Shown here: positions 34,692 to 44,877 of the stretch, piece by piece
How the letters are laid out: each line of letters starts with the position of its first letter
Numbering within the stretch: position 1 is the first letter of the stretch
Origin: Aggregatilinea lenta
Lineage (GTDB): Bacteria; Chloroflexota; Anaerolineae; Aggregatilineales; Aggregatilineaceae
Assembly: GCF_003569045.1 (NCBI RefSeq)
Contig: NZ_BFCB01000002.1
Span: forward strand, 1,345,506-1,409,505
Length of the DNA: 64,000 bases
Reading direction: 5' to 3'
Notes under the pieces: model-generated
Seen by the model: the letters and a program-made list of their open reading frames with translations, nothing else
Told to the model about the DNA's origin: nothing
Databases searched by the model: none
Made by a program: the position numbers and the translations under genes

Positions 34692-37088
34692 ATGAGCACT
34701 ACCATCCGTAAGGCCGCCGTGCTCGGCTCGGGCACGATGGGCAGCGGGATCGCCGCGCTGCTGGCAGGGGTTGGGGTCCAGGTAACGCTGCTCGATCTGG
34801 CCGCGCCGGACAGCCAACCCGGCGACGCGCCCGACCGTCGCAACGCGATCGTGCTGGGCAACCTGGACGCGATGAAAAAGAGCCGCCCGGCCCAGTTGTT
34901 CCACCCCGCCGACGCAGATCTGATTGCGCCCGGCAACCTGGACGACGACCTGGACTGCCTGCGTGACGCGAACTGGATCATCGAGGTCATCATCGAGCGC
35001 CTTGAGCCGAAGCAGCAGCTCATGGCCCGCGTGGACAACGTGCGCAAGCCCGGCGCGATCGTCTCGACCAATACCAGCGGCCTCAGCATCAACGCCATCG
35101 CGGAAGGCCGGGGCGACGACTTCCAGCGCCACTTCCTGGGCACGCACTTCTTCAACCCGCCGCGCTATCTCAAACTGGTCGAACTCATCCCGCACGCCAA
35201 AACCGACCCCGCCCTGCTCGACTTCATGGCCCGCTACGCGACGGACGTGCTCGGCAAGGGTGTCGTGATCACCAAAGATACGCCCAACTTCATCGCCAAC
35301 CGCTTCATCAGCATGTCGGGCACGTTTGGCGTGAACTATGCGCTCGATCACGGCTACACCGTCGAGGAAGTCGATACCCTCACCGGCCCGCTGATCGGGC
35401 GGCCCAAGACCGCCACCTTCCGCCTGAACGACCTCGTCGGCACGGACATCATGGTGCACGTCAACAGCAACCTGTACCCGGCCATCCCCGACGACGAATC
35501 GCGCGAGGTGCTCAACCATCCCGGCTCGCGCGGGCTGCTGCAGCATATGCTCGATCAGGGTTGGCTGGGCAACAAGCGCGGCCAGGGCTTCTACAAGCGC
35601 GTGACCACGCCCGAAGGCAAAGACTTCTGGCCGCTCAACCTGCAAACGCTCGACTACGAGTCGCCCACCAAAGTGCGCTTCGAGAGCGTCGGGCAGCACC
35701 GCAAGATCGAGGACGTGGGCGCGCGCATCAAGGCGATGGTCAACGCCGAAGATCGCGCCGGGCTGTACCTGTGGCACCTGCACGCCTTCACCCTGACCTA
35801 CGCCGCGCGGCACCTGCGCGAGATCGCGGACGACATTCCCTCGGTGGACCGCGCCAACCGCTGGGGCTTCAACCACGCGCTCGGCCCGTTCGAGATCTGG
35901 GACGCGCTCGGCGTGGAAGACACGATCCCGCACATGGAGGCAGACGGTTATGCCGTGCCGCAGTGGGTCAAGGACATGGTCGCCGCCGGGCACCCGTCCT
36001 TCTACCAGCGCGACGAACACGGCGTCGTATCCGGCGTCTACGACCCGGCGCAGAGCGAGGTCGTCCCGCTGCCGCGCGACCCAAAGGCGGTGGTAATCGA
36101 CGATCTGCGCGCCGCCGGGAAAACCGTCGAACGCAACGCGGGTGCGTCGATCCTCGACATGGGCGACGGCGTGGCCCTGCTGGAATTCCACGCGAAGGCC
36201 AACGCGATCGACGACGATATTATTAAGATGGGTTGGAAAGCGCTCGAACGCCTGGACTCCGATTTCGACGCGCTGGTGGTCGGCAACCAGGGCGAGCACT
36301 TCAGCGCCGGGGCGAACATCTTCCTGATCGCCATGCTGGCCCAGGCGGAACAGTGGGACCAGATCCGCGCCGTCACGCGCGAGTTGCAGAATCTGTTCCA
36401 GGCCATGCGGCAGGCGCCGCGCCCGGTCGTCACTGCGCCGTTCGGCATGGCGCTGGGCGGCGGGGCGGAGTTCGCCATGGCGGGCGCGCGGGCCGTCGCG
36501 CACGCGGAGCTGTACACCGGGCTGGTCGAGATCGGCGTCGGCTTACTCCCGGCGGGATCGGGCTGCAAGGAAATGCTGCGGCGCAACATCAACCCGGTCA
36601 TGCAGACGCCCAACGCGGACGTGCTGCCCCATTTGCAGCGCGTGTTTGAGAACCTGGCCCTGGCGAAGGTGTCCGAAAGCGCGAAGCAGGCGCGGGACAT
36701 GGGCTTTCTGACCGCCGCCGACCGCATCGTGCTCAACCGCGATCACCTGCTGGCCGAGGCCAAGCGCGAGGCGCTGCATCTGGCCGCGAGCGGCTACGTG
36801 CCGCTGCCGCCGGGCAAAGTATGGGCCGCCGGGCGCGACGCGCTGGCCGCGCTGCGCATCGGCGTGTACAGCATGGTCGAGGCGGGCTACGCCACCGAGC
36901 ACGACGCGCTGATCGCCAATCAGATCGCATACGTGCTGTGCGGCGGCGATTTGTCGGAACCGGGGTGGGTTCCTGAGACGTACATTCTCGATCTGGAGCG
37001 GGACGCATTCGTGGAGCTGTGCCAGCAGCCGAAGACGCTGGAACGCATCGCGCACATGCTCCAGTACAACAAGCCGCTCCGTAACTGA
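34692..37088 (+). CDS. fadN: 3-hydroxyacyl-CoA dehydrogenase / enoyl-CoA hydratase
   Basis: 798 residues. The N-terminal NAD domain (LGSGTMGSGIA) and the dehydrogenase core with GTHFFNPPRYLKLVE (His152) come first, and the crotonase domain (about residues 470-700, with EHFSAGANIF) last. This order is that of FadN (YusL) of Bacillus, the reverse of E. coli FadB. It hydrates enoyl-CoA and oxidises the 3-hydroxyacyl-CoA with NAD in beta-oxidation. GGGAGAG precedes the ATG. The kinase and fadA genes follow on the same strand. Confidence 0.93.
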   Translation: MSTTIRKAAVLGSGTMGSGIAALLAGVGVQVTLLDLAAPDSQPGDAPDRRNAIVLGNLDAMKKSRPAQLFHPADADLIAPGNLDDDLDCLRDANWIIEVIIERLEPKQQLMARVDNVRKPGAIVSTNTSGLSINAIAEGRGDDFQRHFLGTHFFNPPRYLKLVELIPHAKTDPALLDFMARYATDVLGKGVVITKDTPNFIANRFISMSGTFGVNYALDHGYTVEEVDTLTGPLIGRPKTATFRLNDLVGTDIMVHVNSNLYPAIPDDESREVLNHPGSRGLLQHMLDQGWLGNKRGQGFYKRVTTPEGKDFWPLNLQTLDYESPTKVRFESVGQHRKIEDVGARIKAMVNAEDRAGLYLWHLHAFTLTYAARHLREIADDIPSVDRANRWGFNHALGPFEIWDALGVEDTIPHMEADGYAVPQWVKDMVAAGHPSFYQRDEHGVVSGVYDPAQSEVVPLPRDPKAVVIDDLRAAGKTVERNAGASILDMGDGVALLEFHAKANAIDDDIIKMGWKALERLDSDFDALVVGNQGEHFSAGANIFLIAMLAQAEQWDQIRAVTRELQNLFQAMRQAPRPVVTAPFGMALGGGAEFAMAGARAVAHAELYTGLVEIGVGLLPAGSGCKEMLRRNINPVMQTPNADVLPHLQRVFENLALAKVSESAKQARDMGFLTAADRIVLNRDHLLAEAKREALHLAASGYVPLPPGKVWAAGRDALAALRIGVYSMVEAGYATEHDALIANQIAYVLCGGDLSEPGWVPETYILDLERDAFVELCQQPKTLERIAHMLQYNKPLRN

Positions 37089-37207
37089 GCATCGTCCACA
37101 CACCGTAGACCTATCGGAAACAGAGCTATGAGTCGCTGTTTGAGCACCATCATTCCGAGCCGCCTGTCCAGCAGACGGTCTGCACCCGCAGAAAGGTGAC
37201 GCGCATC

Positions 37208-43696: not shown

Positions 43697-44877
43697 GAGA
43701 TGCCGTGATCGTCGCGCTGTCGCGCACCGCCGTCGGGCGCGCGCAAAAAGGCTCGACCCGTACCACCCGACCCGAAGCCATGATCCGGGCCGTCGTGCAG
43801 GACATCCTGCACCAGACCGCAGGCCAGCTCGACCCGGCGGAAATCGACGACTTTCTGCTCGGCTGCGCCATGCCCGAAGGCGCGCAGGGCCTCAATCTGG
43901 CGCGCGTCGCGGGCCTGCAAGCGGGACTGCCGGACGTCGTGCCCGCCCAGACGATCAACCGCTTCTGTTCCAGCGGCCTGCAAACCATCGCCACTGCCGC
44001 CGAGCGTATCATCGCCAACGGCGCGGACATCATTCTGGCGGGCGGCGTCGAGTCGATGAGCCAGGTGCCCATGATCGGCTTCCACTTCAGCCCCAGCCTG
44101 GGCGCAAGCGAATCCCAGCCGGAAATTTACATGGGCATGGGCCTGACGGCGGAGCGCGTCGCGGAGATGTATTCCGTCTCGCGCGAAGATCAGGACGGGT
44201 TCGCCTACCACAGCCAGATGAAAGCCGCCGCCGCGACAGACGCGGGCAAGTTCGCCCAGGAGATCGCGCCGGTCACGTTCGAGGAAGTGGCCCTGGTCGA
44301 CGGGCAGCGGCAGGCGCGCACCGTCACGTTCGACCAGGACGAGCACCTGCGCCGGAGCACCACGCTCGAGGGACTGGCGAAGCTCAAGCCCGTCTTCAAG
44401 CAGGGCGGGACCGTGACGGCGGGCAATTCCAGCCCGCTCAGCGACGGAGCCGCCGCCGTGCTGGTCATGGAGGCGGACACCGCCGCGCAGCACGGCCTGG
44501 AGCCGCTGGCGCGCTTCGTGGGCTTCGGCGCGGCGGGCGTGCCGCCGGAGGTGATGGGCATTGGTCCGGTCGCCGCCGTGCCGCGCGTGCTCAAGCGCAC
44601 CGGGTTGTCGGTGAACGACCTGGACCTGATCGAGCTAAACGAGGCGTTCGCCGCGCAGGCGCTGGCCGTGATTCGCCAGTTGGAGCTGGACCCGGCGCGC
44701 GTCAACGTCAACGGCGGCGCGATCGCGCTCGGCCACCCGCTCGGCTGCACCGGCACCAAGCTCACCGTGCAGTTGGTGCACGAGCTGCGCCGTCGCGGCG
44801 GCGGGTGCGGCATGGTGACGATGTGCATCGGCGGCGGCCAGGGCGCGGCGGGGATCTTTGAGGTCTACGCGCCCTAG
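43693..44877 (+). CDS. fadA: Acetyl-CoA acyltransferase (3-ketoacyl-CoA thiolase)
   Basis: 394 residues, normal for thiolases. The acyl-accepting Cys92 lies in NRFCSSG, His348 in IALGHPLGCTG and Cys378 in CIGGGQG. It cleaves 3-ketoacyl-CoA with CoA, the last beta-oxidation step, and is the natural partner of FadN. The start codon overlaps the kinase stop (ATGA), so the two are translationally coupled. A GC-rich stem follows the stop without a T-run. Confidence 0.95.
   Translation: MRDAVIVALSRTAVGRAQKGSTRTTRPEAMIRAVVQDILHQTAGQLDPAEIDDFLLGCAMPEGAQGLNLARVAGLQAGLPDVVPAQTINRFCSSGLQTIATAAERIIANGADIILAGGVESMSQVPMIGFHFSPSLGASESQPEIYMGMGLTAERVAEMYSVSREDQDGFAYHSQMKAAAATDAGKFAQEIAPVTFEEVALVDGQRQARTVTFDQDEHLRRSTTLEGLAKLKPVFKQGGTVTAGNSSPLSDGAAAVLVMEADTAAQHGLEPLARFVGFGAAGVPPEVMGIGPVAAVPRVLKRTGLSVNDLDLIELNEAFAAQALAVIRQLELDPARVNVNGGAIALGHPLGCTGTKLTVQLVHELRRRGGGCGMVTMCIGGGQGAAGIFEVYAP

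Follow-up and report, generated by a model that had tools for sequence, protein, structure and literature searches.

An orphan sensor histidine kinase gene between fadN- and fadA-like genes in a family of Chloroflexota

In the genome of Aggregatilinea lenta, the gene for a giant sensor histidine kinase lies between genes that resemble fadN and fadA of fatty acid beta-oxidation. We analyzed this gene within a stretch of 64,000 nucleotides (positions 1,345,506 to 1,409,505 of contig NZ_BFCB01000002.1), which we will call the window. The features of the locus are listed in Table 1. An earlier note on this DNA had placed a kinase of about 2,160 residues between fadN and fadA, with its stop codon overlapping the thiolase start, and these coordinates are correct.

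The fadN-like protein has its Pfam domains in the order that is required of FadN (3HCDH_N, 3HCDH, ECH). It scores 569 bits on NCBIfam NF052272, which is below the curated threshold (999), so we named it from its domain order and its neighborhood. The thiolase passes TIGR01930 (453 bits; the cut-off is 240.6) and misses the narrower models PRK07661 (526.8 of 633 bits) and TIGR02445, the FadA equivalog (355.2 of 591 bits). The kinase is a HisKA-type sensor histidine kinase by sequence: its HisKA match is above the Pfam cut-off and its catalytic boxes are intact. From the N terminus, Pfam finds CHASE4 and HAMP, then PAS and six GAF stretches, and finally another PAS ahead of HisKA and HATPase_c. 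Among the NCBIfam kinase models, the best-scoring ones are of the PnpS, WalK, and PhoR types, each below its cut-off. The gap after the fadN-like gene is 107 bp if counted from GTG 37196. Starting instead at GTG 37208 would give a protein of 2,162 amino acids, and this is the likelier start because a Shine-Dalgarno-like GAAAGGTG precedes it (37191-37198). An identical GAAAGGTG precedes the ATG of the related kinase from genome G009, which is discussed below.

Table 1. Features at the fad-kinase locus, in window coordinates.
Feature	Position	Strand	Basis or remark
rpmJ (ribosomal protein L36)	34406..34522	+	constant left neighbor of the fad-kinase unit; translation, tblastn and genome search
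terminator-like GC hairpin and T-run 3' of rpmJ	34554..34580	+	read from the sequence; not listed by the pattern scan
promoter-like site with extended -10 TGTCATAAT at 34616-34624	34597..34624	+	probable promoter of the whole unit
fadN-like 3-hydroxyacyl-CoA dehydrogenase/enoyl-CoA hydratase, 798 amino acids	34692..37088	+	Pfam 3HCDH_N, 3HCDH, ECH_1
giant orphan HisKA sensor histidine kinase, 2,166 amino acids	37196..43696	+	single open frame; Pfam
CHASE4 extracytoplasmic sensor domain, residues 70-224	37403..37867	+	Pfam PF05228, 1.8e-28
portion of the GAF array containing direct repeats D1 and D2	40457..42528	+	two copies spaced 507-513 nt, third 1,026-1,041 nt away
transmitter: HisKA 1929-1992, HATPase_c 2039-2153	42980..43654	+	phospho-acceptor His at residue 1939 (counting from GTG 37196)
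kinase-thiolase junction: GGGAGG, then ATGA start/stop overlap (4 nt)	43682..43696	+	
fadA-like acetyl-CoA C-acyltransferase (thiolase), 394 amino acids	43693..44877	+	Pfam Thiolase_N, Thiolase_C

A. lenta (G000) belongs to a family of mostly uncultured Chloroflexota, of which we compared 18 genomes from 12 genera. Orthologs of fadN and/or fadA are present in 12 of these genomes, spanning nine genera. Conservation of the gene order was one of the checks that the earlier note had proposed, and the kinase gene lies beside fadN and/or fadA in all 12, with three partial cases. The three genes are consecutive on one contig in nine genomes from six genera (G000, G001, G002, G003, G008, G012, G013, G014, and G017); some of these copies are incomplete (G012 has only a 94-residue end of FadN, the fadN of G017 is not complete, and the fadA of G008 is truncated). 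The partial cases are at contig ends. The end of the kinase gene, encoding its last 380 residues, precedes fadA in G006, and the kinase follows fadN in G007 and G011; the G007 kinase is known from a 694-residue fragment adjoining fadN (31% identity). Uncut family kinases range from 1,232 to 2,477 amino acids.

The genes are also closely spaced. With the first possible start codons taken for the relatives, the gap between fadN and the kinase is 16-136 bp in nine genomes and 88 bp in G007, while in G014 the longer kinase frame, as called, overlaps fadN. Between the kinase and fadA, 10 genomes have a spacing of -4 to +59 bp. Most of the relatives are draft assemblies, and their genes were called with a home-made gene caller. 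That the arrangement is an artefact of assembly or gene calling is nevertheless scarcely credible: the kinase is a single open frame in the window, and the same order recurs on single contigs in those nine genomes.

Outside the family, fadN and fadA are usually neighbors, as the earlier note had assumed, and we found no kinase between them. Among the best 80 of 589 fadN loci, all from named records, 77 are not from the family. In 68 of these, fadA follows on the same strand, no more than 350 bp away in 56 loci and 535-1,948 bp away in the other 12, and none of the 68 has a kinase in between. We did not find fadA in the other nine, five of which have less than 600 bp of sequence left. We also examined 27 loci from the same order (L105-L130 and L030), of which L110 is the family member G007 and 26 are from other families. 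Among these 26, fadA is downstream in 15 (at 16-857 bp), was not found in 10, and in L128 the locus lacks fadN; no kinase lies in any of the 15 intervals. Thus, relatives with fadN and fadA and without the kinase, which would have spoken against the idea of a coupled unit, are absent from the family (0 of 12) and are the rule beyond it. Because the kinase is present in every enzyme-bearing genome inside the family and in none of these intervals outside, its gene appears to have inserted between fadN and fadA at the base of the family or close to it, and to have stayed in that middle position, rather than being an insertion in one genome.

The kinase gene is under purifying selection, with ratios of nonsynonymous to synonymous substitution rates (dN/dS) of 0.09-0.24. 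For G002 and G014, dN/dS is 0.088 for the kinase, 0.041 for fadN, and 0.061 for fadA; for G013 and G017, the values are 0.159, 0.050, and 0.075; and for G002 and G012, they are 0.241 for the kinase and 0.136 for fadA. The H, N, G1, F, and G2 boxes are all present in an alignment of the 11 fad-linked kinases and the related kinases of G009 and G010. We built a tree from the PAS-HisKA-HATPase region of 38 kinases. (These were chosen from 57 open frames; 13 frames were set aside as further fragments or duplicates of a gene already included, and 6 as near-duplicates or more distant kinases.) All 11 fad-linked transmitters fall within one clade of 14 rows (support 82/89), which includes sub-clades with support of 98/98 and 99/97. 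G003 also carries a second fad-type kinase (G003_C60; L137:6816-10109), whose N, G1, F, and G2 boxes are altered and which is possibly inactive.

The unit probably has a promoter just after rpmJ. Of the 10 family intervals that separate rpmJ from the next gene, 9 contain the motif TGY[C/G]ATAAT, each a single time. The motif occurs nine times in 202,544 bp of sequence from eight sources (both strands), and eight of the nine occurrences are at this site. A scan of 34000-45500 for sigma70-type promoters gave one match, at 34597-34624, and is not evidence by itself because shuffled sequences give 1.4. Terminators were scanned similarly (11 terminator-like sites versus 7.0 expected). Between the start of fadN and the end of fadA, the + strand has a single such site, at 39850, inside the kinase gene, and the pattern scan listed none on this strand in the window's fadN-kinase or kinase-fadA gap. 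The hairpin and T-run after rpmJ have similar counterparts in other family members; the fadN-kinase gap of G003 holds a hairpin without a T-run. We take the promoter-like site after rpmJ to be, probably, the promoter of the whole unit, and the kinase to be probably co-transcribed with the fad genes. This part of the earlier proposal, that production of the kinase is tied to the beta-oxidation enzymes, is supported by the conserved order, the short gaps, the motif, and genome G009.

In G009, the kinase is found without the enzymes. One contig carries rpmJ, the terminator, the motif (as TATGTCATAAT), and, directly after the motif, the kinase, so the absence of the enzyme genes at this site is seen on assembled sequence. 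In the place of fadA is a gene whose product is 79% identical to that of window gene 26072-26980 (by eye, alpha/beta-hydrolase-like). Within the 20-kb locus, the sole match to FadN or FadA at E up to 1 is of 33 residues (E = 0.84), about 10 kb away, and we found no ortholog of either in the genome (86% complete). Because the G009 kinase nests among the fad-linked kinases, and because the locus shares rpmJ and the motif, the simplest reading is that this lineage lost fadN and fadA while keeping the rest. No orthologs were found in G010 either (75% complete); there, a related kinase is at another site, and rpmJ is followed by a gene that, by eye, is Mur-ligase-like. In G005, G015, and G016, of genus g6, other sequence follows rpmJ, and we found neither fadN or fadA orthologs nor a close kinase.

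Two acyl-CoA dehydrogenase domains lie in tandem, about 1.2 kb from each other, in 10 of the 12 genomes with fad genes and in none of the other six. (The pair in G000 is on contig 2, at 1461823-1463297. The exceptions are G011, with one such domain near a contig start, and G008, with no pair.) The pair tracks fadN and fadA, not the kinase. Since the kinase outlives both enzymes in G009, its output may well be wider than FadN and FadA, and it probably has a role beyond them and matters in its own right.

What might the kinase sense? The earlier note had suggested a membrane sensor for fatty acids or for the redox state of their oxidation; such a sensor could feed back on fadN and fadA. The operon coupling is consistent with this, the conserved GAF and PAS modules might offer binding sites for a metabolite, and in the window genome CHASE4 lies between two transmembrane-like segments (residues 20-43 and 286-310). 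However, we saw no feature in the window kinase that points to fatty acids or redox. CHASE4 and HAMP were found in 4 of the 10 kinases that we scanned with Pfam (G000, G013, G017, and G009) and not in the other six (G001, G002, G003, G008, G011, and G012). Near the N terminus, G002, G008, G011, and G012 have one or two transmembrane-like segments and G001 and G003 have none. The ligands reported for CHASE4 in two proteins of Pseudomonas aeruginosa (PMC13277305) are heme and probably copper. Finally, the kinase persists without fadN and fadA in G009 and G010. A dedicated fatty-acid or redox sensor is not supported as a general account of this family, and we consider it improbable.

Two more specific ideas about the input region were rejected. 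A redox-sensing GAF was suggested by a cysteine cluster (CC...C.C) in the GAF at residues 944-1088, and the cluster is absent from five aligned counterparts. Recent amplification of GAF units could have explained the size of the kinase, and for 47 of 50 GAF units the best match is a unit from another genus, not one from the same protein. The GAF units are therefore old, and the DNA repeats in the array are not the mark of a recent expansion. Conserved GAF units of the window kinase are situated near residues 646-788, 1296-1437, and 1636-1777.

The kinase does not have the adjacent response regulator of a classical two-component operon. In the window genome there are 84 matches to HisKA and 124 to Response_reg; as the earlier note had stated, no response regulator is nearby, as none of the 124 lies in the window (the nearest are about 42 kb before fadN and about 54 kb after fadA). 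To put this in context, we took the best-scoring 60 of the 83 other HisKA matches, in three of which the gene was not called, leaving 57. No receiver domain was found in the kinase itself or in an adjacent gene for 25 of the 57. Eight are tightly flanked on both sides by genes on the same strand, and two of those eight have no two-component neighbor. So, a tight place between non-signaling genes is rare in this genome (2 of 57), and that of the fad kinase is conserved as well. One of the two kinases is beside an adenosine deaminase gene, and the other lies between PIG-L and succinyl-CoA-ligase-like genes. The latter (L295:6411-9457; G000 contig 3 near 2432952) has 295 amino acids, in which only HisKA and HATPase_c were found, and is another possible metabolic-operon kinase.

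We also looked beside related kinases that are not linked to fad genes. No receiver was recognized by eye among the neighbors under 1,200 nt at these loci, as judged from the well-matched ones among 25 gene-called loci (L097 is G009, L098 is G010, and the kinase gene of L134 was missed by the caller). Because of this, no ancestral partner can be inferred.

Overall, we think that there is about an even chance that the orphan kinase is the middle gene of one family-wide transcription unit and acts as a sensor of carbon or energy state, with its dose governed by the catabolic operon. The points in favor are the conserved order, the short gaps and overlaps, the single clade that holds all the fad-linked transmitters in the tree, the intact kinase boxes, the purifying selection, the motif, G009, the match of most GAF units to other genera, and the rarity of such a tight embedding.

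Several observations weigh against this interpretation. Sequence evolution is faster in the kinase than in fadN or fadA. The inputs of the kinase are highly variable, with two to seven GAF stretches and CHASE4 in fewer than half of those scanned. The clade of 14 rows is modestly supported and also holds G009_C2, G010_C302, and G003_C60, none of which is beside fad genes; the 11 fad-linked rows are grouped alone in 0% of 200 bootstrap trees. The motif is missing from the interval after rpmJ in G006, and the search for an adjacent regulator named no partner.

The neighborhood itself supplies further points of this kind. rpmJ, which has no obvious link to fatty acids, is directly before fadN in nine genomes (G000, G001, G002, G003, G006, G008, G013, G014, and G017) and one gene away in G011, so it keeps its place as faithfully as the kinase does. 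Because an unrelated gene is equally constant, a fixed position does not by itself establish a functional link. Beyond rpmJ, a gene for a binding-protein-like protein of 747-753 amino acids is common to G002, G003, G014, and G009 (L093:3038-5281, L094:5649-7910, L097:8772-11015, and L102:1855-4098; 51-98% identical; Peripla_BP_6, SH3_3, and CARDB in the G002 and G009 proteins). The first gene 3' of fadA is of one family in four of nine genomes, three of which are of one genus; in the other five there is no mutual match. And in sister families, the fadN-fadA interval hosts unrelated genes. A UDG-family gene lies there in G020, G027, and G038 (L105:9382-10197, L106:12931-13647, and L107:8962-9648; Pfam UDG was run on the G020 copy, and the other two are similar by eye), and HNH endonuclease-like genes lie there in G056 (Pfam HNH) and G036 (by eye) (L108:8463-9167 and L113:8642-9336).

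An alternative is that the kinase is a passenger that landed once in the ancestor of the family and has its own, separate role, with the fad position serving as a source of a promoter and having no regulatory meaning. The conserved place fits such a neutral passenger too. Besides rpmJ and the unrelated genes in the interval, the passenger explanation accords with G009, where the kinase is kept without fadN, fadA, or the acyl-CoA dehydrogenase pair; with the related kinase at another site in G010; and with a genome so rich in kinases, many of them without a nearby receiver. On the other hand, all 12 genomes, from nine genera, preserve the place and the tight spacing, and three genomes of genus g6 lack fadN, fadA, and the kinase together, which one block deletion would explain too. 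We consider the passenger explanation possible but somewhat doubtful, and it is the strongest rival. The two explanations are not exclusive, and both fit G009: retention of the kinase without the enzymes favors independence, while retention of the fad promoter motif favors dosing by that promoter.

A few other features of the region were seen. rpmJ was found in 4 of the 107 fad loci, namely three family loci and G053, and the upstream sequence is short in some loci. In G053, from another family, rpmJ is directly upstream of fadA (L128:10126-10239) and fadN is elsewhere; from this, the rpmJ-fad neighborhood may predate the family. A different, distant kinase (about 33% identity to the core of the fad kinase) is encoded 3' of fadA in G038 (526 amino acids; L107:11119-12699) and at L171:5263-5937. 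In the window, a gene 3' of fadA (45321-45623) encodes a 100-residue CxxC zinc-finger protein, which by eye resembles MqsA/YgiT antitoxins. Short palindrome-like repeats (GTAGGGGC...GCCC) are scattered across the window, with 11 core matches on both strands (including positions 44997, 45115, 45228, 53345, 53405, 56226, and 60624), and TGTAGGGGCG is found twice versus 0.04 expected.

Among known systems, AtoS-AtoC is a two-component system whose sensor kinase is tied to short-chain acyl-CoA catabolism. The fad kinase resembles AtoS in this link to acyl-CoA catabolism, and it scores 193 bits on the AtoS model (the cut-off is 646). The AtoS gene has that of an NtrC-type regulator next to it and is not known to be flanked by catabolic genes on both sides; in contrast, the window kinase has no regulator nearby. 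As far as we know, the Bacillus-type fadN-fadA-fadE operon has no kinase gene between fadN and fadA. It resembles the window in having fadN, then fadA, with beta-oxidation genes in one unit, and PMC6529636 describes the fadNAE operon of Bacillus subtilis as controlled by the repressor FadR and by CcpA. The window differs from it in having a 6.5-kb kinase gene in the middle. The domain kit and the transmitter are those of other orphan HisKA kinases of Chloroflexota with multiple GAF and PAS domains. In the titles and abstract openings that we searched, which mostly do not cover subscription journals, no kinase between fadN and fadA is described. The parts are ordinary, and the arrangement is undescribed in that literature.

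If the kinase is indeed part of the operon, then the unit would be transcribed from the promoter just after rpmJ, and the amount of kinase would track transcription of the fad genes. The kinase would autophosphorylate on His-1939 in response to cytosolic cues that are received by its conserved GAF and PAS modules, and lineages that keep CHASE4 would add an extracytoplasmic cue. The phosphate would pass to a response regulator encoded elsewhere, with an output that is probably wider than FadN and FadA. This describes an operon-dosed sensor of carbon or energy state rather than a dedicated receptor for fatty acids. We can also imagine a more detailed version, which we offer tentatively and consider unlikely as a whole: the abundance of the kinase may report the strength with which the beta-oxidation promoter is firing, its conserved GAF modules may read a cytosolic metabolite, and the unlinked regulator may turn this into a wider response; the tie would be so strong that the lineage without the enzymes kept the promoter and the kinase as a stand-alone sensor.

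Sensor-rich bacteria have many kinases without a known partner or signal. A kinase that is kept across a family in one catabolic operon, together with a natural loss of the enzymes that appears to have left the motif and the kinase behind, would offer a place to study how orphan kinases are wired to metabolism.

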